Below, piece after piece: positions 1 through 64,000 of a stretch of DNA of 64,000 nt (position 1 is its first letter; the number at the start of each line of letters is the position of its first letter). A program made the position numbers and the translations under genes. The notes under the pieces were generated by a model. That model was not told the DNA's origin. It worked only from the letters and a program-made list of their open reading frames with translations, and did no database searches. Location of the stretch: positions 15,536,552 through 15,600,551 of the forward strand of contig NC_089740.1 of the NCBI RefSeq assembly GCF_035083965.1, given 5' to 3'. This DNA is from Branchiostoma lanceolatum. Its lineage: Eukaryota > Chordata > Leptocardii > Amphioxiformes > Branchiostomatidae.

Positions 1-1760
1 AGTAGACTATGGACACTAGCAAGCTTACCTGTACTGTTAGCTTCTGCTGTGCTGTTGTTGTGTGGAGAGGAGCAGAGGATATCCGGGAGAGTCTCACAGT
101 CCATCAGACTTCTACATGTAATACTCATTAGACTAGTAGACTACGGACACTAGCAAGCTTACCTGTACTGTTAGCTTCTGCTGTGCTGTTGTCATGTGGA
201 GAGGAGCAGAGAATATCCGGTAGAGTCTCACAGTCCATCAGACTATATTACTCATTAGACTAGTAGACTACGGACACTAGCAAGCTTACCTGTACTGTTA
301 GCTTCTGCTGTGCTGTTGTTGTGTGGAGAGGAGCAGAGAATATCCGGGAGAGTCTCACAGTCCATCAGACTTCTACATTTAATACTCATTAGACTTGTAG
401 ACTACGGATACTAGCAAGCTTACCTGTACTGTTAGCTTCTGCTGTGCTGTTGTTGTGTGGAGAGGAACAGAGAATATCCGGTAGAGTCTCACAGTCCATC
501 AGACTACATTACTCATTAGACTAGTAGACTACGGACACTAGCAAGCTTACCTGTACTGTTAGCTTCTGCTGTGCTGTTGTTGTGTGGAGAGGAACAGAGA
601 ATATCCTGTAGGCTCTCACAGTCCATCATACTTCTACATTTAATACTCATTAGACTAGTAGACTACGGACATTAGCAAGCTTATCTGTACTGTTAGCTCT
701 TGCTGTGTTGTTGTTATGTGGAGATGAGCACAGTATATCCGTGAGACTCTCACTGTCCATCAGACTACATTTGATACTCATTAGACTAGCAGACTACGGA
801 CACTAGTAAGCTTTTATTCAATAGTAACTTCTTCTGTTAGTTTCTGCTGTGTTGTTGTTATGTGGAGAGGTGCAGAGGATAGACTCTTACAGTCTAGAAG
901 ACACTGTTACTGTCACATGTACATCATTAGAAACCCTGTTCTGTTGGACACTTACCTATACTGTTAGCTTCTGCTGTGCTGTTGTTGTGTGGAGAGGAGC
1001 AGAGAATATCCGGTAGAGTCTCACAGTCCATCAGACTACATTACTCACTAGACTAGTAGACTACGGACACTAGCAAGTGTACCTGTGCTGTTAGCTTCTG
1101 CTGTGCTGTTGTTGTGTGGAGAGGAGCAGAGAATATCCGGGAGACTCTCACAGTCAAGTATAGACACTGATACTCTCACATGTACATAAGTATGACACCG
1201 TTGGACACTAACCTGTGCTGTTAGCTTCTGCTGTGTTGTTGTTGTGTGGAGAAGAGCAGAGAATATCCGGGAGAGTCTCACAGTCCATCAGACTACATTT
1301 GATACTCATTAGACTAGTAGACTACGGACACTAGCAAGCTTACCTGTACTGTTAGCTTCTGCTGTGCTGTTGTCATGTGGAGAGGAGCAGAGAATATCCG
1401 GTAGAGTCTCACAGTCCATCAGACTTCATTACTCATTAGACTAGTAGACGTTGGACACTAGCAAGCTTACCTGTACTGTTAGTTCTTGCTGTGCTATGTG
1501 GAGAGGAGCAGAGGATATCCGGTAGAGTCTCACAGTCCATCAGACTATATTACTCATTAGACTACGGACACTAGCAAGCTTACCTGTACTGTTAGCTATT
1601 GCTGTGCTAGTGTTGTGTGGAGAGGAACATAGGATATCCGGGAGACTCTCACAGTCCATCAGACTACATACATTACTCATTACACTAGTAGACGTTGGAC
1701 ACTAGCAAGCTTACCTGTGCTGTTAGCTTCTGCTGTGCTGTTGTTGTGTGGAGAGGAGCA
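1..1760 (-). repeat. 14-copy minisatellite of the exon 15 donor edge
   Basis: The last 70-80 bases of exon 15, coding [20 protein letters not shown], and its GTAAGC donor recur about every 127-134 bases. Each copy is joined to a short intron piece with the repeated words CATTAGACTAGTAGAC and GGACACTAGCAAGC. I count 14 copies including the true exon, and the array runs off the left edge. Copies lie on the intron side only. Read-through past the true donor meets a stop about 12 codons later. Confidence 0.9.
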
Positions 1761-3128
1761 GAGGATATCCGGTAGACTCTCACAGTCCAGCGGTAGATCC
1801 AGGCCCAGACTCGCGATGGTGGCCCCGCAGTGGTCCTTCACTTCCCGACAGAAACTCTTGCACATCGGAACCTTTAGAAACCGGTTGAAAATTGGACCAG
1901 TGAAATGTCGTCTATCATTTTGTGTAAATGCACTTTTGGTCGACTCTATATGCAGTCACTCAGACAGTTTCATGATTCCACAACATTTTGACTCACCATA
2001 AACAGGGCAGTTATGAATATGCTATCACCTTTTTTCATTATCAAACAAATCCTAATCACTCTCAATAGTTCCACACCAATTTATTTCATTGGTTCTCGGA
2101 AAGTTGTCTTTAGTATTATTTATTATTATTATTTGTATAAGCTGTAAATAGTTAGCTTTTGAATACGACATGTACAGCAAGTACACAATTCAGCAAGTTG
2201 GCTGCTATGTACTAACTGCTATGTTCGTTTTAGCAATAAACCATTCTATCTATCTTAAGGGACAAGATAAGAAAGCTGAGACCGAGGAGGAAAACTTGAA
2301 GCTGACATTCTGTTTATCCCAGAAACATTGTGTACTGAGACTTTGCCCTCATTCTCTGTCTTCATATTAATTTTACATTATACAGCATAATATCCATGTT
2401 GGCACATCTGCATATATGAACAGGATTAGGATGCTACTGATTAAGCATTCACTATTATTTATAACAGTGGGGTTTAAGCTCCTCCAACCGACCAGTCTTA
2501 CTGGTCTAGACCTTTTAGCCTAGTGGTTAAGGCGTGCCTGCCTGTGATCTGGTTGCCCGGTTTCGGCGTGGGTTCAAATCCTGGGGGCCAGGAGACTTAT
2601 TTCTACTCGCTTCTTTGTTTCATAGTAATTACATCTACATCTACATCTACATAGGGGTTGTGCCCAAATAACTCCTTCAGGGGCAAAGTAGGGGGGGGGG
2701 GGGGGGGAGTTGAGGTCCCGGGCTAAGGTGGGCAGGCCTCCAGCCTGGCGCGGAACGACTCAACGGTGGGAGCCGTCGCAACCGTGCCAGGCAGGATATT
2801 CCACTGAGGGATGGTACGGGGAAAGAAAGAATGTTTAAGTGTCGGATCTTGCGTGGATGGTGTAAAACTTGAGGTCGTGGCTCCCCCGGGTGCGCCGGTA
2901 GACATCCTACCTTGATAGGTCCCATGGCGTTGGGCAGCAGCAAAGAGCAGACAGCCAGCGCGACCTCGGGGAGACAGTCGCTGTCGAGCACCTGCTGCAG
3001 GGCCCCCAGGGTGGCCGCGTCAGCCTGAAGCGCTGCCTGAGAAACGTGGCCCAGCAGCTCGGGCAGGAGGGTGGTGTTGTAGGGCAGCACGTTCCTGCAC
3101 AGGTCCACCTCGATAGGCTCACTGGGAG
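1715..3128 (-). CDS. FZ CRD6 (exons 14 and 15), lacks cysteines 1 and 5
   Basis: Exon 14 is 3128-2911 and exon 15 is 1871-1715, with phases 1-0-1 like CRD2. It has [44 protein letters not shown] and ILC. C1 is Ser (PSEPI; AGT instead of TGT) and C5 is Ala (LPNAMG versus VPNCHN in CRD2). C1 and C5 form one disulfide in the FZ fold. The domain is followed by a tail rich in N-glycosylation sites (NNST, ANST). Exon 15 leaves in phase 1, so the gene continues left of the window. Confidence 0.86.
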
Positions 3129-4132: not shown

Positions 4133-4180
<48 letters not shown>

Positions 4181-4278
4181 TAACAAGAGATATTTTATAG
4201 AGAATATAGTTAATATCATCATCATCATCATCATCATCATCATCTAACAAGAGATATTTTATAGAGAATATAGTTAAT

Positions 4279-4457: not shown

Positions 4458-7400
4458 GTCCCCATCATCATCATCATCTTGTTTGGTCCCAATATTTCTC
4501 TCCAAGAATTCCTCTTTTTTTCTCCAAGAATTCCTCTTTTTTTCTCCAAGAATTCCTCTTTTTTTCTCCAAGAATTCCTCTTTTTCTCTCCAATAATTCC
4601 TCTTTTTCTCTCCCTCAGTTCATCCATAAACTATATACATCCAGGTAGTTATTGTTAAAACAATTTACATTTCAGATAAATCCAGCAACTGGATAAATTC
4701 TCTCAGGGTCAGATGTTTCAAATAGCATCCAATCATAATCTTTCATTTATTAACTGGCTGAGTTCATTCAGATCCACAATTAGAAAAATTGAGAAAGTAG
4801 ACTTATCATTTTAGATGTTATATCTGCCAACACAAAAGTCCAGAACAATAACAAAAGCATGAAGGATTGGCCAAAATTGTAGTGCCCACAAGTTCTTCCA
4901 TGTTTTGGAAGATAGATACACAGTATTCACAGAAGATGTGCAATAGATAGATAAATATGAATACCTGATCCCCCCGTCCTCCGTGCACTGCGGGAACAGT
5001 ATGGAGCAGGCACCGAACTCCAGGTGGGGGTGGTCCCCAGGAATCTGGTTCAGGCCGGCGAAGATCGCGGGCGCCACGGCGAGGGCTACGTCACTTCCGG
5101 GCAGGCCGAACACGCCCGGGGACCGCGCATGCGTGTACGGCATCCCCATGCACCGGTCAAAACGGATCGGCGCACACGCTGCAATAAACGAACGAACGAA
5201 CGAATAAATAAATGAGGGCCTGCATGGGGGGTCCCGACAACGCTCTACACTAAATTCGGAGGGCCGGCTACGTAATACGCTAAATTCAGAAAGCCTCCCC
5301 CTGCGCTCTACGATAAATTGAGAAAGCCTCCCCCTATGCTCTACGATAAATTCAGAAAGCCCCCCCCTACTCTCTACGCTAAGTTATAGAGTAGGGGGGC
5401 TACGCTCTACGTAAAATAAAAACGGCCGATTACGCTCTACGTAAAATGGGCATGCAGGCCCTCATAAATAAATGAGTGATCAGGGAGTGAGTGAATAAAT
5501 GGCATAAGTGTGTACAGCATATATACACTTGTTGTCAAACCGAATGGGCTCACAAGCTAGAACATGAAATAAATGAATGAGTGAATGAATGAATAGATCG
5601 ATCAATGGAAAATGAGTGAATGAGGGAATGACGGACCGAATGAGCGAATGAATGACTGATATTGTCGAATCGGATTGGTTCACATGCATGGAATGAAGGA
5701 ATGATAAAAAGAACCGATGAATACAAACAGACTGAGTCTATATCATACAGCCTGGCCTCCATTCATTAAGTACAGGTTGATGTAACAGCTAATTACAAAT
5801 TGTACAAACCTATGCAGGATAAGTGTAGTTGTCTCTGCATCCATGTCGGCAGGCAGACTGATGACTGTAGGTATGGGGATGGTCAGGTTCACTTACACCT
5901 ACAGTCATTAGTCTGACTGACGACCGAGAGGATGCAGAAGATAACTAAGAGGAATATTGCACATTCATTCATTCATTCATACATTCAAACTAACACACAG
6001 GAAGCTGTAGGATCATACTGACCAGCGCTGTTCAAACTAACACACAGGAAGCTGTAGGATCATACTGACCAGTGCTGTTCAAACTAACACACAGGAAGCT
6101 GTAGGATCATACTGACCAGCGCTGTTGTCGCGTGGTGGCTCCGGAGACTCAGCTGTCTTGTTGTGTGGGGCTGGAAGGACATGAACAGTAAGGTATTAAC
6201 GTTTAAGTAGTTACATTTTTAAGTTAATTCCTGTATTATTTGTTATTATTTGAACTTTTAGTGTTGCTGTGTACTATCATGTAAGGGGTTGAACCCCCCA
6301 GGAATCGTTGAAAAACGCCGCCAGGCGATACTGTATTCCTGGTTAAATAAATAAACAAACAAACAAACAAACAAACAAACAAGTAAGGACTTTCTCAGCA
6401 GGTTCAAGCATATGAAATTGTGTTTCAAACTTTGCTATATGGCAATAGTCCACTGAGAAGTTAAAATGTTTGGGTTCAGGTTAGTTTTCCGTTGGTAATT
6501 CATCTGTGTTGCTTTCATCTATTGGTTCAGCAGGTGCATCCTAGCATCTGTGTTCACTTGGTTCTTCCATTTCGTTCCATTTCGTTCCATTTTGTTCCAT
6601 TTCGTTCCATTTCGTTCCCTTTCGTTCCATTTCGTTCCATTTCGCACTTTCGGGGGACCGTTGAGCTGTAATTTCCAACACGAAAACACACAGAAGCAGT
6701 GGATTGCTTGTTTCTTGACAAAGACTGGTCAAAGCTTAAATTAGGACTTTCTAAGCAGGTTCAAGCATGTGAAATGGTGTTTCAAACTTTGCTATATGGC
6801 AATACTCCACTAAGAAGTTAAGATGTTTGGGTTCAGGTTAGTTTTCACTTGGTAATTCATCTGTGTTAGTGCTTTTATCGATTGGTTCAGCATGTACATC
6901 CTAGCATCTGTATTGGTAGGAGTCATTCTGGATAAAAAATGAGCTGTAATTTCCAACACGACACGAAAACACACAGACGCAGTGGATTGCTTGTTTCTTG
7001 ACAAAGACTGGTCAGGAGTTGATCAGTCGAAACTTTGGGTTAATCCATTTTTTTTGGTGTCGGTAAGTACAGTTCGACTTTGATTGGTTCAAGTTTGTTA
7101 GTCTTTACACATGGCAATGTTACGTCAAACTATTCTGAGGTTGATCAGACTCAACGGCGGCAACACAATTGTCGTCAGGCACCCGAACTTTGCTTTGAAA
7201 TGTTACATCGGAATGTATTCTTTAGTCACAGTTGCGTGAGTAACTATTACTTGGCGTAAACTATTCTGAGGTTCATGAAACTCACCGGCTGCAACACAAT
7301 TGTCGTCAGGTAGCAGCCGAACGCAGCCCGAACTTTGCTTTACGATATTATAATAAGAAGTTTATTGCAAGTTCATGCCCGTGGGCTAATTGCAAATACA

Positions 7401-9310
7401 TGGTAAAAACATAGAGAAAAACATACATGCGTCAGTAAATTGTGTCTGACTTTGCTGTAACAATAGGTTACTGGTACTATATACAATTGTTGGCTATATC
7501 TAAATTAGCTGGGTTTGACTTATTTTTTGGAAGCAGTGGAAGACGAAAAGTCCCACTTTTTCTAGTATATTACATCCATTCTTCTGTCACAGTTGCTTGA
7601 GTAACTCTTACTTTGCGTAAACTATTCTAAGGTTGCTGAAACTCACCGGCTGCAACACAGTTGTCGTCTGGCAGAAGGTAACAACCGAACGCGACCCAGT
7701 CCATTCCCAGAGCGGCAAGAGCCGAACCGCCGCATGAGAACACAAGATCCTCACAGAACGAACGGCACGGCAGTCTGGCAGGAGAATAAACATGAAAAAA
7801 TAAACAAATAATCATTATTCTATCTAAGTTGGGTTGTACCTTAAGTTTGTATAATTATACTTTGTTATTTCGGTATGTTTTGTTTATGTATGCCTGCAGG
7901 GCGCTTTGAAAACCGCCCGTGTATCGATGTGTTGATCCTGGATGAAATGAAATGAAACATATATATATATACAGTCAAACAGATATTCTATTATTGATTT
8001 ATTGATTGTAAGTTGTGTAAAGTATAGAGAGTGGAGCGTTCGCCTTGAGCTTACATTCGGAAAGCTTCTCTGCTACACTCAGCACTTGTGCGAGTTGAAC
8101 ACATATGGCAAAGAATAGACCATGGACAATTTTGCTTCTTGCTTCTGTGCCGTGGGTGTGTGTCTGCATATATCTTTGAAGAAATAATAAGAAAATTGCA
8201 TTCGTGATGCTTCTCTGCATAGCACTTGAACTTGTGGGAATTGAACACACATAGAGAAGAATGAGAATAGACGAGCCTGGAGACAGATCTCCATCTTCAC
8301 TGCTACCTTGCCCCCCAACGACCCGGAGGTCAAGGGACTAGGTAGGCAGGTAGAGAAGAATAGAGCATGGGCAATTTTGATTATTGTGCCTGCCCTGTGT
8401 GTGTCTGTATATTCCTTTGAAGAGATGATAAAGAAAAGAACAATGTAAAACTACTAACTTGGTTTCCGATGAGCACCCCGGGAAGGAGAGCGCGCAGAAG
8501 AAGATGTCTAGTTGCGGGTGACACCCGGTCAGCATGAGCAGATCCAGCCCAGCGAACAGCGCAGGCGCGATGGCCAGGGCCGTCCCCTGGTCCGGCAGGC
8601 CGAAGGAGTTCGGGAAGCTGGTGTGGCTGTAGGGCAGGGCCGAGCAGCGATTGAACTGGAGAGGCTCACAGGCTGGAAAACACATTTTTGTACAAGCAAC
8701 GTTATCCGAAAGTGCTAAAACTTAAACAGTAAGATTTATCTAGTATAACAGTAACAACATTAAACTGGTGTGGCTGTAGGGCAGGGCCGAGCAGCGCTCA
8801 AACTGCAGAGGCTCACAGGCTGAAAACACATTTTTGTACAAAAAACGTTATCCAGATGTTCCGAAACAGAAACAGCAAGATTTAGCTAGTATTACAGTAA
8901 CAACATAAAGCTAGTGTGGCCGTAGGGTAGAGCCATACAGCGATCAAACTACAGAGGCTCACAGGCTGGAAAATATAAAACCAGATGTTAGAAAGAAAAC
9001 ACACACAAAAAACGATATGATAAATATTTTCTCTCCAGAGGCCCCAAAAGAAAAAAAAAAAAAAAGTTAGACTTATCTAGTAAAGAGAAACAATATTTGG
9101 TTGAAAGACGTACCTGTGGTGTTGTGGGGTTTTGTCATGCCGCCCGAATCTGTGAAGGTAAAAATCAAGTTATTTTTTTATCCATTTTTGGTGAGTGATA
9201 CGATGCAAAACGAAATAACGCAAATACAAATGTTTGGCCTTTCAAACCAAACTAAAGAAAAAGCAAACAGAAATTAAATTCCAAAGTTCAAATGTCAAGG
9301 TTTTTAACCG

Positions 9311-9461: not shown

Positions 9462-12400
9462 CAGACACACACACACACACAAATGAACAAACAAACAAAC
9501 AAACAAACAGAAAACAACAACAACAACAGACTGACCAGTCCCGACGCAGCCCTCCTCGGGAAGAGCGTTGCAGACGAGGTTGACCGCGGGCAGGAGGGCG
9601 GAGACCGGGACCCAGTCCATCCCGGCCAGTTTAAGCACCGGCTCCGCGCAGGACGAGATGGTCTCACGGCACACCGAGCGGCACGGCAGTCTGTGGAACA
9701 GAGATTAACAGATGTAAGTTGGGCAGGAGGGCGGAGACCGGGAGCCAGTCCATCCCGACCAGTTTAAGCACCGGCTCCGCGCAGGACGAGACGGTCTCAC
9801 GGCACACCGAGCCGCACGGCAGTCTGTGGAACAGAGATTAACAGATGTAAGTTGGGCAGGAGGGCGGAGACCGGGACCCAGTCCATCCCGACCAGTTTAA
9901 GCACCGGCTCCGCACAGGATGAGATCGTCTCACGGCACACCGAGCCGCACGGCAGTCTAAGGAGGGGAAATACATAACTTAATTTTTTATTTTGTATTAT
10001 TAGAAGTGCAACAGTGCAATACACGTGAGACACAGGCAGCTATTGTTGGTGTCGTGACCCACATACATAATGTACTTGATTCTTACACCTAGGTGAAGTG
10101 AGGAAAGTCGCGGAAAGTGCCTTTTTCCCAAGGGCACAAGATCGGTGGCGTCAGGGCCGCTGGATTCTGGGCCGAAAACTCCGCCACACTACCTAACAAT
10201 TGTCAAACAACCAAATTCATAGTTCCTGCGTAAAACCTAGGTAAAAAATCACAGAGGCACAGAAGACCAGCTTCAAACCACCTTTGTCCTGTCGCTTATA
10301 AATTAAGTCAGATCAAATGACATACAAATAAAACGAAATTGTTGTTTCCGTAACCGACATGAGTAAATCCTCCGGAGACCTACAGATCCAAACCACCACT
10401 GTACAGTCGCTAATAAATTAAATCAGATCAAATGAAGTGAACACAATTGCTGTTTCTGTAACCGACATTCTAATTAAATGAAATAAGATGAACAAAATCG
10501 CTGTTTCCGTGTGTTCAGTTTTTTTATGAAATGAAAGAAAAAGAAGCAATCATTGTTCACTTATGCCTGCGAACGATTGATTGATCATTGTTTCCGTGAC
10601 TGACCTGAGCTCCTCAGAGCGGCAGTCCTGGTACATGAGGGAACACAGGATGGAGTCCAGGTACGGGGAGCACTCCGACAGCTGCAGCAGGTCCAGCACT
10701 GTGAAGACAACCGGCGCGACCGTCAGGACCAGCCCCTGGTCAGGCAGGCCCAGCGCGGTCGGGAACCTGGCGTGGCGATACGGGAGTGCAGAACAGCGGG
10801 GGAACCGGATAGGCTCACAGTCTGAAACATACACAACATACCATTAAAGATCAGTATATGCACTAATATGTGCTGCCGTTAGGGGGCGCCCCTGCACTAG
10901 GTGGCCCAGCGCGTTGGGGAACCTGGCGTGGCGATACGGGAGGGCAGAACATCGGGGGAACCGGATGGGCTCACAGTCTGAAACATTGCAGAACACCATG
11001 TTAAAGATTGGGGCATGCACTAATATATGCTGCCGTTAGGAGGTGCCCCTACACAGCGCGTTTGGGAACCTGGCATGGCGGTACGGTAGGGCCGAACATC
11101 GGGGGAACAAGATGGGCTCACAGTCTGAAATAATGCAGAACACCATGTTAAACAATGATACATGCACTTATATGTGCTGCCGTTAGGGGGCGCCCCTGCA
11201 CTAGGAGGCCCAGCGTGTTGGGGAACCTGAAGTGGTGGTACGGGAAGGCCGAGCAACGGGGGAACCGGATGGGCTCACAGTCTGAAACATACACGACATA
11301 ACGTTAAAGGTCAGTATATGCACTAATATGTGCTGCCGTTAGGGGGCGCCCCTGCACTAGGAGGCCCAGCGCGGTCGGGAACCTGGCGTGGCGGTACGGC
11401 AGGGCAAAACATCGGGGGAACCGGATTGGCTCACAGTCTGAAACATACACGACATAACGTTAAAGGTCAGTATATGCACTAATATGTGCTGCCGTTAGGG
11501 GGCGTCACTGCACTAGAGGGCCAAGCGCGTTCGGGAACCTGGCGTGGCGGTACGGCAGTGCCGAACAGCGGGGAAACCGGATGGGCTCATAGTCTGAAAT
11601 ATTACAGGACATCATGTCAAAACATCGTAGATGCACTAATTTGTGCTGCCGTTAGGGGGCGCCCCTAAGGGGAACCAGATGGGCTCAGAGTCTGACATAT
11701 ACAAAACAACACATCAGAGAAGATTGGTACATGCACTAATATGTGCTGCCGTCAGGGAGCGCCCCTGCGCAAGGAGACCCAGCGTGCTGTGAACCATTTA
11801 AGTCAAGCCCATAGCACTTTCAGAAAATTAGACCCCAAACTTTTAAATTCTGCAGCAATTAGGTTCAAAGCCGCTAGGGGGCCTATCATCGAACTTGACT
11901 TTTGTTTTCCCGACCTCTACCTACCAAATATCATGAACATCCATTGACAGCTTCTTGAGTTCTGCTGTTTACATACACATATACATACACACCACATCCA
12001 CGCCATAATGGCAAACCCGAAAATTTAATCCTTTGGCGAAGGTAATGCATCATAAAGACGGTACCTGTCTTGTTGCGTCTGTTGGCCAGCGCACGCGCGG
12101 TCTCGTTGTATGGGGACGAGCACCTCCCCTGGTGAGCGTCTGGGAACGAGTTGCAGTCAAACGGCCAGGTTTGGCCCATGCTGGCCATCGTGGGCTCGCA
12201 GGCCTCCCGTACCTCATGGCAAAACGACTTGCACGGGGGGATCTGTGAGAAAAGTATCATATAATTAAGTTCATACCGCCCGCCCTCTCTGTTGAGTGAT
12301 TAATATTTTTGTAAGATAATAAGACTTATTCCTGTAAGAAAAACTTTTTTTCCCAAATTGATGTACAGTATTGAAAAGGAAATCCCATCGGAAAGGCGTT

Positions 12401-37741: not shown

Positions 37742-40700
37742 GTAATCGACTTTTATTTTCAAGTTCTTGCCCGAGCAATAATTATAACATGTAAGAATGT
37801 ATAAAAAGGTAATGGTGACACGTGCAACGAGTGACTATTCTAAGAACTGCTACGGAAAACAATCTACGCTTTTTGGGTTTGACTTCTTTTTTGGAAGCAG
37901 TGGAAGATGAAGTGTCTCACTTTTTTGCAATGAGTGGGTTTGAAAGGTTTGCAGGGCTCTAGCTTTCTTTTCTTCAGTAAACGTATGCTTGGAAATTGTG
38001 GTGGCTTCTTTAAGTAGCTCTTTTCTTTCCTGATCATTAAAGTGTACGTGAGTAATAGTAAGTACGGAATCTATGAAGACTACCTGTGAGCCAGTGTTTT
38101 CCCAGCGATCAGATCATCAACTTTATATGTTTGCATGATTTCATTTTAGGAAACGAAGGTTCTATCGAGAAGCTCTACACACCTGAAGACGGCCCGGGGA
38201 AGGTAGAGAGGGAATATGTACGGACGAACTTCCCGGTTAACGACTCCGAACACTTCCTCCCCTCCCGGGTGATCACAGCGGGGCGTTACGGGGCTGTGAT
38301 CATCAGGCCCCGAGGGGAAGTCTCGGACAACGCGCTGCACACGGCGGTACTGGACGCCGCCGTCTCTCTACACAATAACATATCGGACTTAGTAACGGAT
38401 GAGCTCGGGTTGAGCTATACAGACGTTTGTGCCAAATGGAAAACCGACTGCGTCATCAGCGGTTTGGACTTGCTAGACTTCATCGCCACAAGTTTTCCTA
38501 ACGTTACGGTTGGCTACCCGTGGACTTCCTTACCGGGAGGTTTAAGAACTTTCAGCGGAGCGATTCTTGGCGACGTAACCCTTAAAGACGAGACGGAAAC
38601 CGTCAAGAAAGTTGGAGCCATCAAACTTATTTACCATCTTCGCTCTTCTCGAGAAGATGACGACAGAAGGAGCGAGGCGTGGGAAGGCGCCTTCCTGGAG
38701 AACATGGCGGTGTTTTCCTCTGACGTCATAGCCGTGACGTGGTCGACGTCACACTCGCTGGAGACGGAGATTGCCGAGATGGCGACACGAGCCGTGCCGA
38801 ACCTGGCGGCCTACACGGTCAGTAGGGCCTTTTTGAATCCCGTCTTTTATTGTTAAAGTAGAAAGAAGTAATAACTAAGCTACTACGAGCAGGCTGATTG
38901 TCATGGGACCCAAGCTCAAAGACAAGAGGGCACAGTTACCATGCTTGTATGTTTGAAACTGCGACAACTAAGTGAACTGTTATGCATGTCTGTGCAAATT
39001 GATGTCAAGGCTGGAAAATGGCAACTTCTTGGTTTAATTATCCATCATGGCGGTCATAGTTGACATCATATAGTCATGTGACGTGTGTGGAAAGCAGTGG
39101 TGGCCCGCATCGTCGACAGATGAAAGCGGCGACAACGATGATGATAGTCAAGTAAGTAAGTGCAACGCTATAATGTATGTCTAATAACATGAAATGTACC
39201 CGTTGATCCAGGTGAGCATGCTGCTGGCGTTCGCGGTGCTGTCGTGCGTGATGCGGGACCCGGTCCGCAGCAAGCCGTTCCTGGGCATGGTGGGCGTGCT
39301 GGGCGCGGGCATGGCCGTCATGGCCACCGTGGGGCTCTTCTCCTACTGCGGGGTCATGTTCAACAACCTGGTGGCCGCCATGCCGTTCCTCATCATAGGT
39401 CAGTGGTTATAGTTTATTTGTCAGTGGTCAAAGTTCAACTGTCATAGGTCAGTGGTCATATCTTATGTTTTAGGTCAGTGGTCATAGTTCATATGTCATA
39501 GGTCAGTTTAGTCATGTTCAGCAACCTGGTTGCTGCCATGACGTTCCTCATCATAGGTCAGTGGTCATAGTTCATATGGTATAGGTCATAGTTCATATGT
39601 CATAGGTCAGCTTAGTCATATTCAGCAACCTGGTGGCCGCCATGCCTTCGCTCACCATAGGTCAGTGGTCATAGTCTATATGCAATAGGTCATAGTTCAT
39701 ATGTCATAGATCAGTTTAGTAATGTTCAATAACCTGGTGGCCCCCATGCCTTCGCTCACCATAGGTCAGTGGTCATAGTTCATATGTCAGTGGTCAAAGT
39801 TCAAATGTCATAGGTCAGTGGTCATATCTTATGTTTTAGGTCAGTGGTCATAGTTCATATGTCATAGGTCAGTTTAGTCATGTTCAACAACCTGGTGGCC
39901 GCCATGCCGTTCCTCATCATAGGTCAGTGGTTATAGTTTATTTGTAATAGGTCATAGTTCATATGTCATAGGTCAGTTTAGTCATGTTCAATAACCTGGT
40001 GGCCGCCATGCCTTCGCTCACCATAGGTCAGTGGTCATGGTTCATATGTCAGTGGTCAAAGTTCAAATGTCATAGGTCAGTGGTCATATCTTATGTTTTA
40101 GGTCAGTGGTCATAGTTCATATGTCATAGGTCAGTTTAGTCATGTTCAATAACCTGGTGGCCGCCATGTCTTTCCTCATCATAGGTCAGTGGTCAAAGGT
40201 CTTATGTTATAGGTCAATGGTCAGAGGTAATGTGTCATAGGTCAGTTAAGTGATGTTCAACAACCTGGTTGCCGCCATGACGTTCCTCATCATAGGTCAG
40301 TGATCATAGTTTATATGTTATGTGTCATAATTCTTATGTCATAGGTCAGTTTAGTCATTTTCAACAACCTGGTGGCCGCCATGCCGTTCCTTATCATAGG
40401 TCAATGGTCATGGTTCATTTAAGGTACATGTTCCCCAGCCATGCCTGGCGGTCGAAGGAGAACCACCGTGCCCACAGTGGAAAACAACCCACTGGCCTCA
40501 AAAAGGCTATGGGACTACCTTTGGCTACCTTTATTTTTACCTTTCTGTCTGTCTTGCCCAGGTGTAGGAGTGGATAACATGTTCCTGCTGCTGGCCGCGT
40601 GGCGCCGGACCAGCCCGCGGCGCAGTGTGGAGGAGCGGGCTTCGCGTGTTGGTGTTGTTTGATGGTTGTTTGATGGTTGTTTGTTTCCCCTCAGGTGTAG

Positions 40701-53078: not shown

Positions 53079-56000
53079 CTGAGGACAAATCACGTGAGCC
53101 ACCTTAGTTTCTTTAACTTCCTTATAAGGAGCAGGGCCAGCCATTAACATCCTGTTAAGGTCAGTGATATTTTGGCATCACCTTTAAAACAAGAATCTAT
53201 GGCAAGCATAATGGTACTAATTTTCCCTGCTTTAAGCATCCCTTTCAGCACTCTCAACAAGCCCGTATCTGAACCACGTTAACAAAACGTGAAATGCAGT
53301 AGACCGATCCCACAGCACATTACCGCCTTCAAAAAACAACGAAATGGTAGTAAAATCTGAACGTAGAAATGCAATGTTATCTCTTATTGGTTAAAGCAAG
53401 GATCGGTCTATTCAAGGAACTTTGATCAAAGGCTTTTATCAAAAGCTCCCTGGTCTATCTCGTGGAGGAGCCGGCTGTAGAGAAACCAGTTTTCTGTTGC
53501 CGGCTCCGAACAGATTTTTAATCTGTGAAGATGAATAAATAGATAAATAAACTGTTGTGGAGAGTGTCGTTCAGTTTTCCCCCCAGTTTTTCCCGAACAC
53601 ACCTTAAGTCAATTTGTGTGTTACCACGTTTTCCCACCTTTCCCTCATGCGTAGCGATCTCGTTCCCATGCCCCACCTGAGTTCTGACGTCAGCGATGAC
53701 GTTTCTGGCGGCCTGGTGACTCGTGTCCAGGTTCTCCAGCAGCGCCACCTTCTCCTTGGCGATGGCGTCGATCAGCTGGTCAGTCGCTTCCTGGATGCTC
53801 TTCTTCGCGCGTTCCTGGAAAACGGAAGTACGTCATCATTCTTCTACCTTTACGTCATTTTCTGTCTTATTCGCGCATTCCTGGAAAACGGAAGTACGTC
53901 ATCATTTTTTTTACCTTTACGTCACTTCCCGCAGATCAATGTTCACATGAAGGAAAAACTGCTTAAAGCTAAACTGATGAGAACATCAGACATAGACTAA
54001 TAGCAACAATCTGGTTTCTTTTTGACAAATATTTAAACAATATACACAACTAAAAGAGTAGCTACTTTGGTTTCTGTAGCTTTCCATCGTGGTTATGTTT
54101 TATACAGAGTAGATTGGCTTTTAAGAGAGCTGGCTATAAGCCTGTCCGGGTTTCAACTGCGCATGACCAGCGAGATGCACAATGATAAAGGTTAATCAGC
54201 CAGCATGGTGGACAATGCTGACGTCAAAATCACGTGAGTGCAAACACCATATAAGGCGCGGTTTCTCACCTGCCTGGCGTTCAGCTCAGCATCCGTTTCC
54301 GCCATCTCCCGCAGCCTTCCCGTCAGCTCTTGCGCGCGCTTCCTGCCACTCTCCAGCTGAACTTTCACCTTTGCCCTCTGCTGCTCTAGCACGTCACCGA
54401 GCCTCGTGACGTCATGGTTTTTGTGGCCCAGAATCATGCACTCAGAGCACACGGTTTCGTCACAGCGGGTGCAGAAATATCTAGAACATGCAAATCAATA
54501 TGACGTCATATGTTGTTCAGTACCCTGAAAAAGGTCTTAAAGATGGACGAAAAGTCAATAAAAGTGCATTTGTTGTTATCGTTATAATTTCATTGGATTC
54601 TTTTAGAAGGATTTGGATCTGGGTACGTTTTCAACGTAGTCTATTTCATTTATAAACTACAACAACAAATAATAAAAAATGAGAACGCACCTAAGTTGTT
54701 CCCCCTCGTGAGTGGTACATTCCCGTCCTTCCCTGCGCATGCCCAGTTCCCTGACCTCCAGCTCGCGCCGTTCCGACAGCACCTGTCTCAGGTTACCGAC
54801 CCAGAAGTTCTCAGGTAACCCGCGGACACCTGGGGAAAACACAAAGTCTGTCTTAAGATGCTCAACTTCAGTCTGTAACTTGGCAGGTGTTAAAAGTGCC
54901 GGTACCATGAAATCACCGAAAGGTGGAAACTGACTGATCATCCTGTAAGAAGCTAAGAGACATGTAAATGAAAAATGAAAGCGGCATCATGAAACCTATT
55001 AAATGACTTTCTTTAATCAGAACTGACCTTGACTTCTTCCATGTTTTGATTGTAATATCAAGGTTTCCTAAAAAAAAGGTCATTGCCCGAACGTAACCTC
55101 ATTGGCAATACAAACAGACCACCAACCAGTCTCCTTAGCCATAGTTTAGGCATACAAAAACATCGTCACATAATCGTTATAGAATCAACTGGAAAGGAAA
55201 ACTGAATAGAGCCAAATATCAACATTTCCAGCTAAAAACTATCAATATCACAGAATTATTACCAACTCACCTTCGAAGGGAGCCTAAACAAGGCCAAATA
55301 TAGTAATACCAGAACGTTTGAACTGAATTAACCCCCAAATCTGCCAGTCGTCTGTTTAGTCTCTGACTGTGGGTCCATTTTCTACAGGCTTATGGGTTGG
55401 CCCCTACATTCTAACGGTTAACTTAACACCAAAAAACAGCGTCGCTGAGGTAAAAACAGTTTCAGAATCTTAACATACGTACCCAAATTTAGCTCGAGCT
55501 GGGTCAAAGACAGTAACGTCGGTTGTTCTGTAATAATAGGAAGGTCTGAACTGTCTTAACCCCAAGTTTTGTCCGTGCGCCAGTTTTGTACGAACTCCTG
55601 TCTCTATGGCTGATCCCCGAACATTCCTCGCACTATTAAACACGCCGGCTCACATACCTCAACAAACCTGAGCCGGCCAAGGAAGAGTGTGTGATGTCTT
55701 AAGGATATAGTGGGTACGTCTTGCGGATGGGGGCACGATTGCGTGGTGTCTTAACGGAAGCGGTCACGTCTTAGGAATGGGGACACAAGTGTCAACACCG
55801 GAAAGACCGTAAATCAAGGCTGAAAAGTGGCTAAGACGGCCACAAAGTCTTAGAGTAAGGGACTTTGATATTCTCCCTACAGTTTGGAGAGGACGCAGAT
55901 ATATCCCTGCCAAAAATATGAAATCGATGTTTTGTCTTTTCAAACTTACAATATCTAGAATGTTTTCAAGAAAGTAAGTTGCCGGAACAACTGTACAACG

Positions 56001-56977
56001 TTTTTCATCACATGACAGCTGAATTTTGTACAACTTGCTCACGGCAGTCCCGAGACTGTCCCCAATTTGCTCTCGTGTCGTCTAAGGCCCCTTCGCTAAC
56101 CTGTCGTAACCGAAGGTATCTTATCATAGACGACTATTATATAAGGACAGAAGAATTCGCCTGTGTCTGGAGGTTCGACATCCTTCCTACAGTTAGAACA
56201 TGACATAGAGATTCTACATCCGACCATGTCTTGAAGACAGTCCTCACAAAATGAGTACGACGTTTGGCTACTCTTGGCTCTGGCAAAAACAAATCTTTTA
56301 GCTTTCTTGATATATTTACCCGTGTCTGGAAATTTGACATAATTCCTACAGTTGAGACACGGCATAGGGATTCTCCATCCAACCATGTGTTGTAGACAGT
56401 CATCACAGCGCAGGCGGGGTAATACTCACCCTAGTAAAACAAAACTTATAGCTTTCTATGAAAGGGTATATATATTCACCTGTGTCCGGCAGTTTGACGT
56501 CTTTTCTACAGTTGGGACATGACATAGATATCCTCCACCCCACCATGCCCTGTAGACAGTCCTCACAGAAGGAGTACACTAGGTAAAACTATAAAGGTCT
56601 ATAAACTACTACTATTCACCTGTGTCTGGCGGTTTGACGTCTTTCCTACAGTTCGGACATGACATAGAGATCCTCCACCATTCATGCCCTGGAGACATAC
56701 ACAGTCCTCGCAGAAGGCTAGGAGTACACTAGGTAAAACTATAAAGGTCTATAAACTACTATTCACCTGTGTCTGGTAGTTTGACGTCCTTTCTACAGTT
56801 GGGACATGACATGGATATCCTCCACCCGACCATGCCCTGGAGACAGTCCTCGCAGAAGGAGTGCGCGCACGGCAGCAGTTTAGGGCGCGTGTACGTGTCT
56901 AGGCAGATCCCGCACGTCAGCATCTCGTTCCCAGAACAGCTCGACGTCCTCGAACGTCCGCTCGCCGCCGCCGCCAT
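52569..56977 (-). CDS. TRIM-family E3 ubiquitin ligase with C-terminal membrane anchor (TRIM13/TRIM59-like)
   Basis: Five exons (56977-56767, 54829-54691, 54480-54270, 53814-53677, 53078-52569) join in frame to 1209 bases, about 402 residues, close to TRIM13 and TRIM59 in length as I recall them. Domain order: a C3HC4 RING at residues 20-65 (CGICLD, CAHSFCEDCL, CPNC) and a B-box2 (CTTH, YFCTRCDETVCSECM, GHKNH). A coiled coil follows through residues 140-240 and a variable region, then a single hydrophobic segment near the C-terminus (AFWAVVMSVVILVCAMLF). RING ligases of this type ubiquitinate substrates at the ER membrane; the substrate is unknown. The start codon lies in a CAAGATGGCGGC context, a YY1-like site. 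Intron 1 holds four copies of the RING exon end. High confidence in class, moderate in orthology. Confidence 0.92.
53295..53415. mobile_element. Short MITE with TAGACCGATCC inverted ends
   Basis: TAGACCGATCC at the left and GGATCGGTCTA at the right bound about 115 bases without an ORF, in a TRIM intron. The same end sequence is seen at 16.16 kb and 18.95 kb. Confidence 0.65.
53440..53550. mobile_element. Possible LINE 3' tail
   Basis: A GC-rich hairpin-like segment (GGAGCCGGCTGTAGAGAAAC and its mirror TGTTGCCGGCTCC) is followed by GTGAAGATGAATAAATAGAT and AAATAAAC, like the short-unit tail of other LINE ends here. Confidence 0.35.
53677..53814 (-). CDS. TRIM exon 4: coiled coil
   Basis: The exon encodes ERAKKSIQEATDQLIDAIAK followed by EKVALLENLDTSHQAARNVI, a continuous helix. 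Acceptor TTCCAG, donor GTGGGG, phase 0 on both sides. Its acceptor edge is repeated once upstream. Confidence 0.9.
53806..53935 (-). repeat. Extra copy of the TRIM exon 4 acceptor edge
   Basis: TTCGCGCGTTCCTGGAAAAC and then GGAAGTACGTCATCATT with CTACCTTTACGTCA occur at about 53804 and again at about 53870 with small changes, a period of about 66 bases. The second copy retains the AG. Confidence 0.85.
54270..54480 (-). CDS. TRIM exon 3: B-box2 core and start of coiled coil
   Basis: YFCTRCDETVCSECMILGHK and NHDV complete the B-box2 zinc ligands. A heptad-rich helix follows (VLEQQRAKVKVQLESGRKRA). Acceptor TTCTAG, donor GTGAGA. Confidence 0.92.
54691..54829 (-). CDS. TRIM exon 2: RING/B-box linker
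   Basis: GVRGLPENFWVGNLRQVLSE is the usual link (a GLPxN motif) between the RING and B-box in TRIM proteins. It ends with the first B-box ligands, CTTHEGEQL. Acceptor CCCCAG, donor GTGCGT, phases 1 to 2. Confidence 0.9.
54960..56110. other. TRIM intron 1, unique part
   Basis: AT-rich intron sequence with no family-supported exon. A GTGTCTTAAnGGAnnnGG word recurs two or three times near 55690-55780. The rest shows nothing notable. Confidence 0.5.
56120..56766 (-). repeat. Four extra copies of the TRIM RING-exon donor edge
   Basis: The exon end (coding SFCEDCLQGMVGWRISMSCP, NCRKD and PDTG) with its GTGAAT donor recurs at about 56618, 56476, 56320 and 56157, at spacings near 142-163 bases. The two nearer copies keep most RING residues; the two farther ones are more mutated (for example NCRNYVKFPDTG). 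Copies lie only downstream of the true exon. Confidence 0.93.
56767..56977 (-). CDS. TRIM exon 1: start codon and RING finger
   Basis: MAAAASGRSRTSSCSGNEML leads into the RING. All zinc ligands are seen: C-x2-C in CGIC, C and H in CAH, C-x2-C in CEDC, and C-x2-C in CPNC. It ends CCAGACACAG before GTGAAT in phase 1. Confidence 0.92.
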
Positions 56978-57215
56978 CTTGGATTTGTTCTGGGTTGTCG
57001 TTTGATTGTGACGTCACCTTCTGGGAATGTTGTTGAAATCTTCGCTCGCGCCTTCTAAGGCTTGAAGTTCATTCCTGTTGAAAGAGAAGACTGTGATGTT
57101 ATCAAGAAACAAAATGTAGGATCGCCATCTTGGATTTGCCCCGTTTGCCATGACGTCACCGCCTGGGAATGTTCGTGTTGATTTTCGCGCCTTTTAAGGC
57201 TTAAGTTACTCAGTC
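56960..57215 (-). promoter_or_regulatory. Duplicated TRIM promoter and start-codon region
   Basis: A segment with GCCATCTTGGATTTG (YY1-like, covering the start codon), TGACGTCACC (CRE) and TGGGAATGTT, plus CGCGCCTT and TAAGGCTT words, occurs twice about 142 bases apart (CREs at 57009-57016 and 57151-57158). The upstream copy keeps an ATG that opens a nine-codon frame (MAILHFVS, then a stop). Confidence 0.7.
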
Positions 57216-60200
57216 TTCAGTCCAGCTAAAAAGGAGACGGCGGTGTGACTGGAAACAAGCTCGTTAAACTATTTTTCACACATCATTCTTAAAGAAACAT
57301 GCACACCAGGGAGGTTTATATGGAGTTTTCCTAAGATCATGAATGGACGTTTAACGTTTAGTGCGAGGAAAAAAGGGACGACTATTTTCCTCAGGACTAG
57401 CTTTAGTAAGCCCAGGTAGACAGTTGTTTATCTACTAGCCTGCATGTCCGGATGTCGGCGACCCGTTCAGAACGGTGACAACACGAGCCGCTGAACCATA
57501 CTCGTCTGTAAACAGACCTCTAAGTGGCTGATAATTACTCTCCTTACTCACTTCTAACAACCGTATTTAACGTGCCTTAAACATCCGGAGTGCGCAATGA
57601 CAAAGGGTCCCGCCATGTATTTTAGCAAATCATCATTCGTGAACTAAGATGAATATTCGTCTATAAGACTCGAATTGTAGTGACAAGGGGTGCCGCTATA
57701 TACTTAAAGAAATCATGATTTGTGAATTCAGACTTTTTGCATGTGACAATTCCGTTTGTAATACTAGTAGTAAGTCACATCCCTAGCTAGCTGGCCATAC
57801 CTGTCGTACTCAGTCGCGGGGGTCAGAACGCAAATGTTTTTTTTCGATCTTTTTTTCTATTGCAACATGAAAAACAACACATAGTGATGCCGCAATCATA
57901 CAAAACACGCTTATTCAAGCGAAATCACCACACACAAGAAGCAAAACATGTGACGAAGTATGCAAACAGACGAAAATATTTGAATTCAGTCGCAATTGGA
58001 ATCTCCAAGACGACCCAATTTCATGAGACTGTATCTCGAACGTATCTTGATCTCCAGAAAGATAACACAATGTAGACAGTCTATTGGTTTTGAAGAGGCC
58101 CTTAAGATTTAGGTCATGTTAGGTCATTTTTAGAGCCCGGCCAATGTTCACAGATCCCCGAGCTCGAGAAACAAAACAAAATTAAACAAGAACAAGAACG
58201 GGGGCGTGATGACTGTGGGACGCACACGACGCCCGTCCCGTGCCGCCACACGGGTTTGCCCCGGTCGCAGGGACAGGTACCCCCAGCCCGCAGGCACACC
58301 TGTCCTCTCACCTGTCCTCTCACCTGCCCATCCACGTGCGGATCTACCTGGCCATCGTCTCACTTGGATGAACTACGGTGTGATTGGGGCACCTTTCGTG
58401 CCTAATGGCTCACACATATACCACGTGTAAAGCTAAATGTGAACTTTATGTATGTGTTTTTTTACGGAAAAACTGACAGATTATGGGAAATGACCATCAT
58501 CTGGATAATCTAAAATTGGGCAAATATTAAAACTGGAGCGGAATGATTTTGATTGACATGAAAGAAGGCGGTGATTGTGTCATACAGAGCCCTGATTGTT
58601 CAATGTACCCTTGCCCTATTTGCTCACTATCCGTATGATATTAACACATCTTATCTCCAATTGTTCAGTGAACCATAACGAAAGAAACAAATTGTTCAAA
58701 GAAAACATCACGAAATACCCCAACTTTCAAACATTCACGGACGAACAAAAAGTAAAATCATAGAACTTATAAGAAGCAACAACTTATAGAAAACGTGGGG
58801 CTTTTCGTCTTTCACTGCCTCCAAAGTAAAGTAAAGTTAAGTAAAGTAAAGCAGTCATCCTCAATTAAGCTGAAGCATATGATGCTTTTTCAAGTAGCTA
58901 GTGGTAGTGCAATGCGGCCTCGCCACGGCTCGCGTTTTTGACCAAGCACACCGGGTCACCCCTACTCTTCTCGATAAGTGTGTTGGGTTCTTTTACGTGC
59001 AGAGGGCTACGCTTGAGGCAATACGCCCGACGCTCCCTCATAAACGGGGGCGTCACCATCCGAAATGAGGAATGCAATCCATTACAACATGCCCGAGCTC
59101 AAGTCGACCCCTAGTATGCTGTAGATGTCCCGGTACGTTTGTTGTATCAATCAAATTCAACCACCGTTTCCAGTGAGTTAAAGAATGTCCCCTACTGAAC
59201 ATCCGTGTATCTGCCTGTTTCCGTATCTGTACAGCTGATGGAACCAGTCTTAGTTGTAACACACCAGCTTTAATGGCACATTTACACTGCACGGCCTGTC
59301 ACACCTGACCTCTGCACTTATAGCTGTTGACGTTGTTTAAAGCTATCTATCGAGGATGTCACTGTAGTACGACGTATGTGACAGCGGCTTTACACAGTTG
59401 ACACCAACTCTCCACAAAACTGTTCTGTTACCCTACAAGTCGGTACCCGTTTTAACAGATACACTGCACTGTTAGTGTTAACACAAGACGTGTCTCGCAT
59501 GTTTTACAGACTCACCTTTGTACAGCTGACACTTACCAACGCTAACTACAAAACTGTTCTGTTACCCTACAAGTCGTGCACTGCACTGTAAATATAAGAC
59601 TCGTGCCTCACATGCTTTACCAGCCACAGAAACACCTCAGCCCCCCTCCCCACTTTCCTACACACCTCACCTGTCTACCTGTACATCTTACCTGTTGTAC
59701 GTCCTTACATGTGACGTCTCTACGTCACGAACGTCTCAGGTGTGCAGGTGACATCCCGTGTGTGCTACCTGCGGCCGAACTGTCGCGGCTGTCGGTTTAA
59801 ATCTACCTGAGCCGACAGTCAACTTTCACCTCGCCTAACAGCTGGGCTCTTGTTGCCAGCAGAGGCTCTCACGGGGTTACAGAGAATCTCTTCACACCAT
59901 GATAGGTCATGACCGTATACATGGCTGTGTGAATTGCTTTGCGTGTATGAATGAGTGAATGAATGAATGAATGAATGGATGGACAGAAGTTGTTGAATGA
60001 ATGGATGGCATTGAATGAATTAATGAATGAATTAATGACGGAAGGAAGGAAGGAAGGAATATAAATGGCACGTATTCACGAGCGCTGATATACCCTTTCA
60101 GGGCCGCGCAGTGGTACAGGCCGTTATTGTCAGTTAGCCCTCAGGACATGACAGAAATAACAATAGAGTCGCTTAAAACCGAGAAGCCCCGGATGTGGAT

Positions 60201-62550: not shown

Positions 62551-62554
62551 GACT

Positions 62555-62700
62555 GTGTCGTTGTGGGATACGGTAGTTATGATCCTCCGCGGAATGGTCC
62601 CTGTGGGCTACGGTAGCTATGATCCCCGCAGAATTGTCCCTGTGGGCTACGGTAGCTATGATCCCCGCAGAATTGTCCCTGTGGGCTACGGTAGCTACGA
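62555..62700 (-). repeat. Tandem repeat of the Rab-like stop-codon edge
   Basis: The minus-strand end CTGCGGAGGGTCGTAG followed by CTACCGTAGCCCACAGGGAC recurs about every 42 bases, three to four times (CTGCGGGGATCATAG and similar) beyond the stop codon. Older copies extend leftward to about 62240. Confidence 0.85.
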
Positions 62701-64000
62701 CCCTCCGCAGCACTTAGATTTCTTCTCCTCCTTCTTGTTGAGGTCCAGAATGTTGGATCTCGTCTCCTCCGAGTCCATCTGCATCATTTGTCTGGAAAAC
62801 AGCGTCACGTTCGTGTTTACTTGTTTGTTTACATGTACTTGGATTTTCTTCACCCCAAGGAGAATAATACCTATATATAAATATACATTTGTACGTAGAT
62901 ACCACTCCGTATGAGACATGGGCTAGACAAGCATATAACGTACACAACATAAACGTCCAACTATCTTTACATAACCGTGTCCATCAGTCGTATATATATA
63001 CGGAATGGTATACTTTTCCTTGACCGAAGCACAATGTGAAAAAAAAACCTGAACAGTTTTGAAAAAATAGTCGTATCCATCTCTTTTTCTTTTAGACGTT
63101 GTTTACTGTCCATTTTGTACACATATATTACCTGGGTACGTATGGAATCACAATTGTTGGCAACACAACAATTGTTACGTCAATGAAGGTTAGACATCCA
63201 GGTTATGAGGCACGCCAAAAAGCAGTTACTCCAGCAACTGGATATGATTTTGGAAACGGTCAGACGTTTCAGGTTACAAGTAGCATCCACTCCCTTTCGT
63301 CAGTGACCTTTAGCAAGATTTGTGGGTCAGCAGGTTTTTAACCACGTATTATAGATTGACTTTAGATTAAAGTTATCTTGAAGCGAGTCAGTCGCTACCT
63401 AGTTTACCTTAACGACTACATCTGGCAAAGCAAACTCGCCAGTACTGAGTGGGAGGGTGTCAGCTTTTAAATGATGTTTTCAGATTGAAATTATGGCAGT
63501 TTGGAAACGATATAATTGGCAACAGTAATCTTGACGTGTCTCTTACCTCATGAGTTTTTCCACGGCATCCTGCACGTTGTCTCCATGCTTCGCGCTCGTC
63601 TCACAGAACAGGGCTCCGTGCTCCTGGGGAGGAAGGAAGGAAGGAGGGAAGGAGGGAAGGAAGAAATGAATGAATAGATGAATTGATGGATAAATAAATG
63701 GATGAAGCACAAATTAAGGTCAAATCTGCCTAAGAAACAAAAGCGTCTTGTATGACTGAAAGGGTAAAATATCGACAAAAGTAAGTGAAAAGACAAAAAT
63801 TGGTATGAAAACTCGTCTGTTGCAGTCATTTCAACTTGAGAAGGGTCAGCGACTGACTTACATCTTCTTAGTAAGAGCTTTATTTTGTGCAAGGAGACAG
63901 TACGAAAACAATGAAGTCGTCATCCAGAACAGAATAAAACAAAGAAGATGTTGATAAAAAAACTCACTCTGGCCATCTCCTCTCCGTGACCTTTCAGGAT
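62695..64000 (-). CDS. Rab-like small GTPase, last three exons (5' part outside window)
   Basis: Exons 64000-63968 (partial), 63623-63547 and 62791-62695 join in frame. They encode ILKGHGEEMAR, then EHGALFCETSAKHGDNVQDA with VEKLMR, then QMMQMDSEETRSNILDLNKK ending KKSKCCGGS-stop. FCETSAK is the Rab/Ras G5 motif (E-T/S-S-A-K) that contacts the guanine base, and the C-terminal CC followed by three residues fits double geranylgeranylation of Rab proteins. The basic KKEEKKSK tract supports membrane targeting. The P-loop and switch regions lie beyond base 64000, so the subfamily cannot be named safely. Confidence 0.85.
63180..63350. repeat. Interspersed repeat family R2, copy 2
   Basis: It shares GGTTAGACATCCAGG, CAACTGGATATGATTTTGGA, ACGGTCAGACGTTTCAGG and CTTTCGTCAGTGAC words with 22040-22180. 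It lies in the last intron of the Rab-like gene. Confidence 0.65.
63630..63715. repeat. (GGAA)n and (TGAA)n simple repeats
   Basis: A GGAAGGAAGGAGGGAAG tract followed by AATGAATGAATAGATG lies directly upstream of the acceptor of the ETSAK exon. Confidence 0.9.

Follow-up and report, generated by a model that had tools for sequence, protein, structure and literature searches.

Tandem copies span the adjacent exon edge at 10 of the 48 edges modelled in the window (the whole 64-kb stretch of amphioxus DNA analysed here), and these copies vary mainly at the third position of the codons of their exon. We lean towards the view that they are minisatellites of the kind called mirages, in which the real edge belongs to a recombining array as its one member under selection and re-seeds it, probably from different alleles; the preference for edges lies outside this explanation.

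Our gene models are based on homology and phase and comprise four genes (multi-Frizzled, FZ; Patched-like, PT; TRIM-like, TR; and EF-hand) with 24 exons, whose joins are backed by unbroken phase and by Pfam domains that span joins in five spliced pieces. The array-bearing edges are five acceptors, four donors and one start codon. Nine of them were found by a probe search with a threshold of at least 40 bits, namely the FZ-e1, FZ-e4, PT-e3 and TR-e1 donors and the FZ-e5, FZ-e6, FZ-e7, PT-e4 and TR-e4 acceptors (Table 1). The tenth, where the TR-e1 promoter is duplicated together with the start codon, is older, has a unit that holds only ~6-7 coding bases and comes from a separate array list rather than from the probe search. 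The affected edges lie on both strands and are of both types, acceptors and donors being involved alike (5/23 vs 4/22). The initial annotation was right that exon-edge arrays exist and that one of them copies a promoter and start codon, but its count of at least 14 arrays in all five genes was not confirmed: 10 edges are counted, they are confined to the multi-Frizzled, Patched-like and TRIM-like genes, the EF-hand gene has tandem copies at 0/4 edges in the probe search, and no fifth gene model was found in the window. The stop-codon array that it also described did not appear in the probe search (0/2 stop-codon edges).

Table 1. Exon-edge arrays and their authentic exons (window coordinates)
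Feature	Position	Strand	Copies and units
FZ-e1 donor-edge array	1..1789	-	13 copies scored, units ~113-134 bp; extends past left window end
FZ-e1 authentic exon, Frizzled domain	1715..1871	-	
FZ-e4 donor-edge copies	7120..7697	-	spacings 361 and 131 bp
FZ-e4 authentic exon	7647..7774	-	
FZ-e5 acceptor-edge array	8615..8972	-	2 copies, unit 146-147 bp
FZ-e5 authentic exon	8459..8672	-	
FZ-e6 acceptor-edge array	9588..9963	-	2 copies, unit 133 bp
FZ-e6 authentic exon	9536..9690	-	
FZ-e7 acceptor-edge array	10720..11795	-	5 copies scored, units 147-157 bp
FZ-e7 authentic exon	10605..10821	-	
PT-e3 donor-edge array	39353..40431	+	8 copies scored, compound unit ~104 bp
PT-e3 authentic exon, Patched sterol-sensing domain	39212..39398	+	
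PT-e4 acceptor-edge array	40546..43254	+	20 copies preceding the authentic one, units 113-142 bp
PT-e4 authentic exon	43176..43341	+	
TR-e4 acceptor-edge duplication	53795..53930 (limits approximate)	-	two copies, shift 66 bp
TR-e4 authentic exon	53677..53814	-	
TR-e1 donor-edge array (RING exon end)	56138..56862	-	4 copies scored, units ~140-160 bp
TR-e1 authentic RING exon with start codon	56767..56978	-	
TR-e1 promoter-side duplication with start codon, old	56972..57258	-	two copies, shift 151 bp

Most arrays are too old for the first duplication junction to be located. Elsewhere in the window one array (43879-44199) lies entirely within a coding exon, another (12267-12657) is entirely intronic, and further arrays are present between 15 and 37 kb. 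A tRNA-Ser at 22865-22946 was considered as a case of edge copying and rejected: the adjoining repeat unit is no copy of the tRNA end and instead resembles the body of a dispersed element headed by a tRNA. That the arrays are artefacts of assembly is very hard to believe: one mirage is reported to have been aberrantly assembled in a genome draft (PMC3087553), but the many differences between copies, the intact flanks and the several independent arrays speak against it here.

Are the arrays concentrated at exon edges? The intactness of the exon and the direction of copying (acceptors upstream, donors downstream) had been offered as arguments for this, and we reject them as evidence, because any tandem duplication across an edge forces this geometry; enrichment alone counts. 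A point-wise control at 40 bits gave no excess (9/48 edges vs 966/4000 random points), because the expanded arrays themselves occupy much of the window; the arrays are thus their own background, and this test was dropped as a measure in favour of a collapsed map on which every array contributes a single count. Seven of the 19 arrays in our own list cross an edge, vs 2.31 expected (P = 0.005); this list has 18 rows, of which 39353-43254 was split by hand into two, and because it caps the spacing allowed between copies, FZ-e4 and TR-e4 drop out of it and are excluded from the enrichment counts. In the TRF list 7/11 arrays cross an edge vs 0.97 expected (P = 5e-6); these 11 were picked by hand from 108 rows, after removal of rows that overlapped, of units <40 bp, of one ATC-rich array (4099-4457) and of the GA-rich ones at 48.4-51.0 kb. 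When single genes are left out of our own list, the arrays that cross number 5/17 without the Patched-like gene (P = 0.02), 6/17 without the TRIM-like gene (P = 0.0038) and 3/15 without the Frizzled gene (0.98 expected, P = 0.069). The part of the placement claim that stands is a moderate enrichment, which in the window depends largely on a single gene, Frizzled.

It is conceivable, if rather doubtful, that arrays arise everywhere alike and that those that hold exon sequence stay recognisable longer through refreshing by the exon. Compared with the intron flank, the exon parts of the copies do vary less at the first two codon positions and contain fewer indels (below), and the excess is weaker without the Frizzled gene and among the more alike TRF arrays (at least 85% matches); these last nonetheless exceed expectation (3/7 vs 0.55, P = 0.012). 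The initial annotation had suggested initiation at splice sites or R-loops: the 10 array edges could not be told apart from the 38 others by GC step (P = 0.53), exon GC (P = 0.38) or exon length (P = 0.66), and these predictors and the equal incidence at acceptors and donors neither back nor exclude it.

The codon signature was measured in nine arrays, eight of them with at least two copies, by scoring the columns that vary among copies with the authentic unit excluded. At positions 1, 2 and 3 of the exon frame 27/184, 20/184 and 64/183 columns vary (position 3 vs 1+2, OR 3.7, P = 4e-9); the third position is the most variable in 8/8 arrays, and positions 1+2 vary less (P = 4e-6) than the intron flank of the copies (76/279), whose variable columns have no phase (27/96, 26/91 and 23/92). 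The OR for position 3 is 3.8 when CpG columns are removed and 3.05 (P = 2e-6) when stratified by base and CpG, and rotation of the frames equals the observed total in 1/6561 (P = 0.00015). When copies are compared with the exon, 80 of the 140 classified variants are synonymous, vs 35.9 expected.

Could a single old duplication per edge, followed by the usual growth of a minisatellite while its copies decay neutrally, with selection on the exon only, leave such a pattern? The exon's own branch alone yields some silent bias, and the piling up of frame-breaking indels and the absence of a distance gradient (below) agree with such a history, which we nevertheless judge unlikely. By our own derivation, one duplication with neutral decay sets an upper bound of 0.467 on the position-3 share, and this bound is exceeded in three measures, which overlap (P = 0.013, 0.00024 and 3e-5). 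Parsimony counts, which recombination can inflate, are 67/110 without TR-e1 (P = 0.0019) and 53/93 without TR-e1 and PT-e4 (P = 0.03). The silent bias grows with the likely age of the variants: those at positions 1/2/3 number 20/13/39 in single copies, 3/7/25 in several copies and 0/1/7 where the exon differs from nearly all copies. Single-copy variants, which are expected to be near neutral, are still biased (39/72 at position 3).

Indels are fewer in the exonic parts of the copies than in the intron flanks (13 vs 49); 11/13 of the unique exonic ones break the frame, and 40/49 of the intronic ones would likewise do so. Most unit lengths are not divisible by three (e.g., 133 and 104), and the AG/GT splice dinucleotides are intact in 54/57 aligned copies, three more copies being unaligned. 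Four arrays yielded 28 copied acceptors; within 50-300 nt downstream, 26 of these lack any donor-like site that equals the donor of their own exon in strength, and 19 lack any that matches the weakest authentic donor, by a matrix built from the same authentic donors. The constraint at positions 1 and 2, the retained AG/GT and an open frame of 109 aa common to the two distal, neighbouring TR-e1 copies would suit direct selection on the copies, for example as seldom-used alternative exon edges; the broken frames, the unit lengths and the scarcity of donor-like sites at exon distance argue against it, and we consider it improbable. We likewise give little credence to capture of the copies from diverged exon versions (paralogous genes or very old alleles) with little decay since then: in the distal two TR-e1 copies 15/30 and 14/32 third positions depart from the exon, but only 7/59 and 4/64 of the positions 1 and 2 combined, as capture might produce, but intron flank of the same locus is also present in most copies.

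Among the five arrays with at least four copies, divergence shows no trend as copies lie farther from their exon (rank correlations -0.16, 0.20, -0.61, -0.28 and 0.60, none significant), and simple addition beside the exon is therefore not what happened. The exchange, its allelic source and the exon definition that we infer would act as follows: a local tandem duplication of ~65-160 bp across an edge would make one unit the authentic edge itself and place its copy or copies in the intron, and the array would expand and contract through unequal exchange and short gene conversion. With the working exon as the end unit, exchange would export exon sequence, other alleles included, into the array, and with protein-level selection in the exon only, the exported sequence would be largely without amino-acid changes. 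The copies, though not expected to be translated, would thus differ mainly at silent positions because the exported sequence had already been filtered by selection. Exon definition would make them tolerable, since most copied edges have no partner splice site at exon distance. Toy population models of this process gave synonymous/nonsynonymous ratios of 1.0-1.75 in eight settings with slower exchange, 1.3-38 in seven further settings and 3.3 in one in which the exon also receives. Amphioxus heterozygosity is reported as 3.2-4.2%, and non-crossover tracts as mostly <200 bp (PMC12500494). Against re-seeding stand the missing distance gradient, the bias of single-copy variants and the third-position divergence of the distal TR-e1 copies, which looks too high for the alleles of one population; the scarcer exonic indels are equally explained by direct constraint, and the intron sequence is also simpler.

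More tentatively, and at somewhat less than even chances in our estimation, the exon edge may take an active part in the array within its own intron. Fast exchange, probably between alleles, would then stock untranslated DNA with the silent variants of the exon, and selection acting on one unit would leave its record in sequence that is not translated; in a large, variable population the arrays could also return silent variants to the exon. If about one fifth of exon edges carry arrays genome-wide, as they do in the window, these would keep spare splice sites permanently available and would show, as an experiment of nature, how the right one is chosen by the splicing machinery. The codon signature allows sequence exchange between exon and repeat to be measured from a single assembly, and it is also a means of spotting unannotated exons next to arrays. 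So far as literature searches show, this signature is new; the open-licence PubMed Central literature, as far as it was covered, yielded no genome-wide mirage survey and no codon-position analysis of mirage copies.

How do these arrays compare with known systems? Like intron gain by tandem duplication (a model in PMC3087553 and a potato case in PMC4974935), they arise from duplications that carry splice signals, but their copies sit within existing introns and no new intron is shown. Lancelet PGBD5 carries imperfect repeats of 60 and 108 bp that take in intron/exon boundaries and vary in copy number between assemblies; it is a single gene, and the account of it in PMC3902484, which also cites troponin C, gives no placement or codon test so far as covered here. 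The initial annotation's mention of boundary minisatellites in amphioxus was sound: they are in print as "mirages" (PMC3087553; PMC3902484), with Adh3 (Canestro et al. 2002, as cited in both) and the globins BflGb6 and BflGb9 (PMC3087553) as examples, and PMC3087553 reports length polymorphism, somatic instability and RT-PCR data, with regular splicing undisturbed in Adh3 and the globins. Mirages are tandem, minisatellite-like duplications of acceptor or donor edges with their splice signals, with globin units of 150-160 bp (PMC3087553). The arrays described here are of this kind, already known in amphioxus: their units span boundaries (at nine splice edges), both 5' and 3' boundaries are involved, AG/GT is kept in many copies, and the animal gene set of the window is compatible with a cephalochordate host. 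They differ from the published mirages in that a single 64-kb window holds them at 10/48 edges, one with a promoter and start codon, and in that the codon signature of their copies has been measured.

The 24 exon models used here, with AG and GT sites, give 48 edges (acceptors, donors, starts and stops). Each exon chain keeps a single consistent open phase: 12 exons in the Frizzled gene, 4 (exons 2-5) in the Patched-like gene, 5 in the TRIM-like gene and 2 in the EF-hand gene. A profile search found Pfam domains spanning the joins of five spliced pieces (E values: Fz 4e-15, 1e-15 and 2e-17; Patched SSD 4e-48; B-box 1e-10). The row of Frizzled modules, each spread over two exons, is to our knowledge an uncommon architecture. 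Two minus-strand open frames with signal-peptide-like starts are possible first exons or separate genes.

Genes, arrays and other features in the window
Feature	Position	Strand	Basis or remark
Gene with several Frizzled domains	up to 15.1 kb	-	Pfam
Consecutive Frizzled-type modules	1715-15094		at least six, two exons per module
Array with ATC runs, intron ahead of exon FZ-e2b	4099-4457		stops about 3 nt short of the exon's AG
Old 152-bp array	12267-12657		almost entire intron between FZ-e9 and FZ-e8
Tandem arrays outside gene models	15570-16368, 20258-20992, 31433-31873		
Tandem arrays outside gene models	35831-36238, 36719-37010, 62330-62714		
Open frames	18245-18562, 26700-26900	-	signal-peptide-like starts
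Inverted copies of unit adjoining tRNA-Ser	near 22.0-22.3 kb		
tRNA-Ser and adjoining array	22372-22946		array follows on the tRNA's strand, units 135-139 bp
tRNA-Ser (GCT)	22865-22946		
Partial tRNA-like piece	23868-23923		
Patched / sterol-sensing-domain gene	37.6-45.6 kb	+	Pfam
Repeat wholly within coding exon PT-e5	43879-44199		81-bp unit, about four times
Simple-sequence arrays, GA-rich	48487-49090, 50694-51008		
EF-hand gene, two modelled exons	50.5-51.3 kb	+	Pfam
TRIM-like gene, RING + B-box	52.6-57.0 kb	-	Pfam

Sequence spanning an edge recurs in the adjoining DNA at 10 of the 48 edges (5 acceptors, 4 donors and 1 start); nine came from a probe search, and the tenth is an older duplication of a promoter and start codon, as the initial annotation had proposed. 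That annotation had counted at least 14 such arrays in five genes; edge copies do exist, but are supported here at 10 edges in three genes, the probe search finding 0/4 edges copied in the EF-hand gene and, contrary to a supposed stop-codon array, 0/2 stop codons copied. Copy spacing is 66 bp to about 160 bp except for a single spacing of 361 bp at the Frizzled exon FZ-e4, and at splice edges each unit includes, by our reading, about 17-105 bp of exon. At the Patched-like exon PT-e4, 20 acceptor copies stand ahead of the authentic acceptor.

Other arrays lie in or beside exons. The 81-bp repeat in PT-e5 is in frame (27 residues per unit) and is a coding repeat rather than an edge copy. The array with ATC runs ends at the splice site with FZ-e2b not copied, the 152-bp array halts about 25 nt from either splice site with neither edge copied, and the second GA-rich array starts directly past the EF-e1 donor, that exon also not being copied. 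The units beside tRNA-Ser contain a T-arm-like motif, and this region looks like a dispersed, tRNA-headed element with a repeated body.

A tandem duplication spanning an acceptor leaves its copy upstream and the exon whole, and one spanning a donor leaves its copy downstream; this geometry, previously offered as a sign of targeting, is thus forced and is no evidence for it. Nor are edges special point by point (9/48 edges in the probe search versus 966/4000 random points), because expanded arrays occupy much of the window. When each array was collapsed to one unit and counted once, 7/19 crossed an edge where 2.31 were expected (P 0.005); for TRF arrays the values were 7/11 versus 0.97 (P 5e-6), and for those with at least 85% matches 3/7 versus 0.55 (P 0.012). 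With the TRIM-like, Patched-like or Frizzled gene left out, 6/17 (P 0.0038), 5/17 (P 0.02) and 3/15 (P 0.069) arrays cross, respectively. An excess at exon borders is present in the collapsed counts but leans on one gene; part of it could reflect longer persistence of exon-bearing arrays. Nine of the 19 arrays fall outside the gene models, and some of these may touch unmodelled exons.

Lying in introns, the exon parts of the copies would not normally be translated, and under neutrality the three codon positions should change equally. Among copies, with the authentic exon excluded, variable columns instead number 27/184, 20/184 and 64/183 at positions 1, 2 and 3. The same units' intron flank has 76/279, which position 3 resembles (P 0.08) and positions 1 and 2 together fall below (P 4e-6); read in three phases, the flank shows no periodicity (27/96, 26/91 and 23/92). 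The third-position pattern persists without CpG columns and when stratified by base and CpG, position 3 is the most variable in 8/8 arrays with at least two copies, and array-by-array frame rotation reached the observed total in 1/6561 cases. Between copy and exon, 80/140 classified variants are synonymous (35.9 expected), and at FZ-e4 5/5 differences fall at silent third positions.

If each array arose by one duplication followed by neutral decay, silent bias would arise through the exon's own branch only, and we derive a position-3 share of at most about 47%. Three overlapping measures exceed this bound (64/111, 87/141 and 95/150; P 0.013, 0.00024 and 3e-5), as does parsimony without the TRIM-like exon TR-e1 (67/110, P 0.0019) or without both TR-e1 and PT-e4 (53/93, P 0.03). 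Direct selection on the copies is unlikely, since 11/13 unique exonic indels break frame, comparable to 40/49 intronic ones. With the bound exceeded and direct selection unlikely, the sequences leave recurrent copying, in which an authentic exon under selection would be copied into its array again and again, from differing alleles or lineages. In amphioxus, published heterozygosity is 3.2-4.2%, SNPs in a single diploid assembly give a polymorphism rate of 4.39% (PMC4284660) and non-crossover tracts are mostly <200 bp (PMC12500494), so an amphioxus host would have alleles and tract sizes available for such copying. A toy population model gave synonymous/nonsynonymous ratios of 1.0-1.75 across eight settings with slower exchange and 1.3-38 across seven others, mostly with fast exchange. 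Against recurrent copying, divergence showed a gradient with distance from the exon in 0/5 arrays examined, single-copy variants are already biased (39/72 at position 3), and third-position divergence in distal TRIM copies (15/30 and 14/32) looks too old for alleles.

Splice sites are intact in 54/57 aligned copies (3 further copies are unaligned), so another feature must distinguish copies from authentic sites. A motif search in four arrays recovered 28 copied acceptors, and the stretch 50-300 nt downstream of each was scored for donor-like sites with a matrix built from the same authentic donors. In 26 cases no such site matches the strength of the exon's own donor; in 19 none reaches the weakest authentic donor. 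This scarcity would fit exon definition.

The amphioxus exon-intron minisatellites mentioned in the initial annotation are indeed published, as mirages, in Adh3, globins, troponin C and PGBD5 (PMC3087553; PMC3902484). The globin report describes regular splicing by RT-PCR, haplotypes of 6 and 3 units and concerted evolution within clusters, and proposes an intron-gain model (PMC3087553). Beyond these known mirages, the present analysis shows how dense the arrays are within one window, tests their placement and describes the codon signature.
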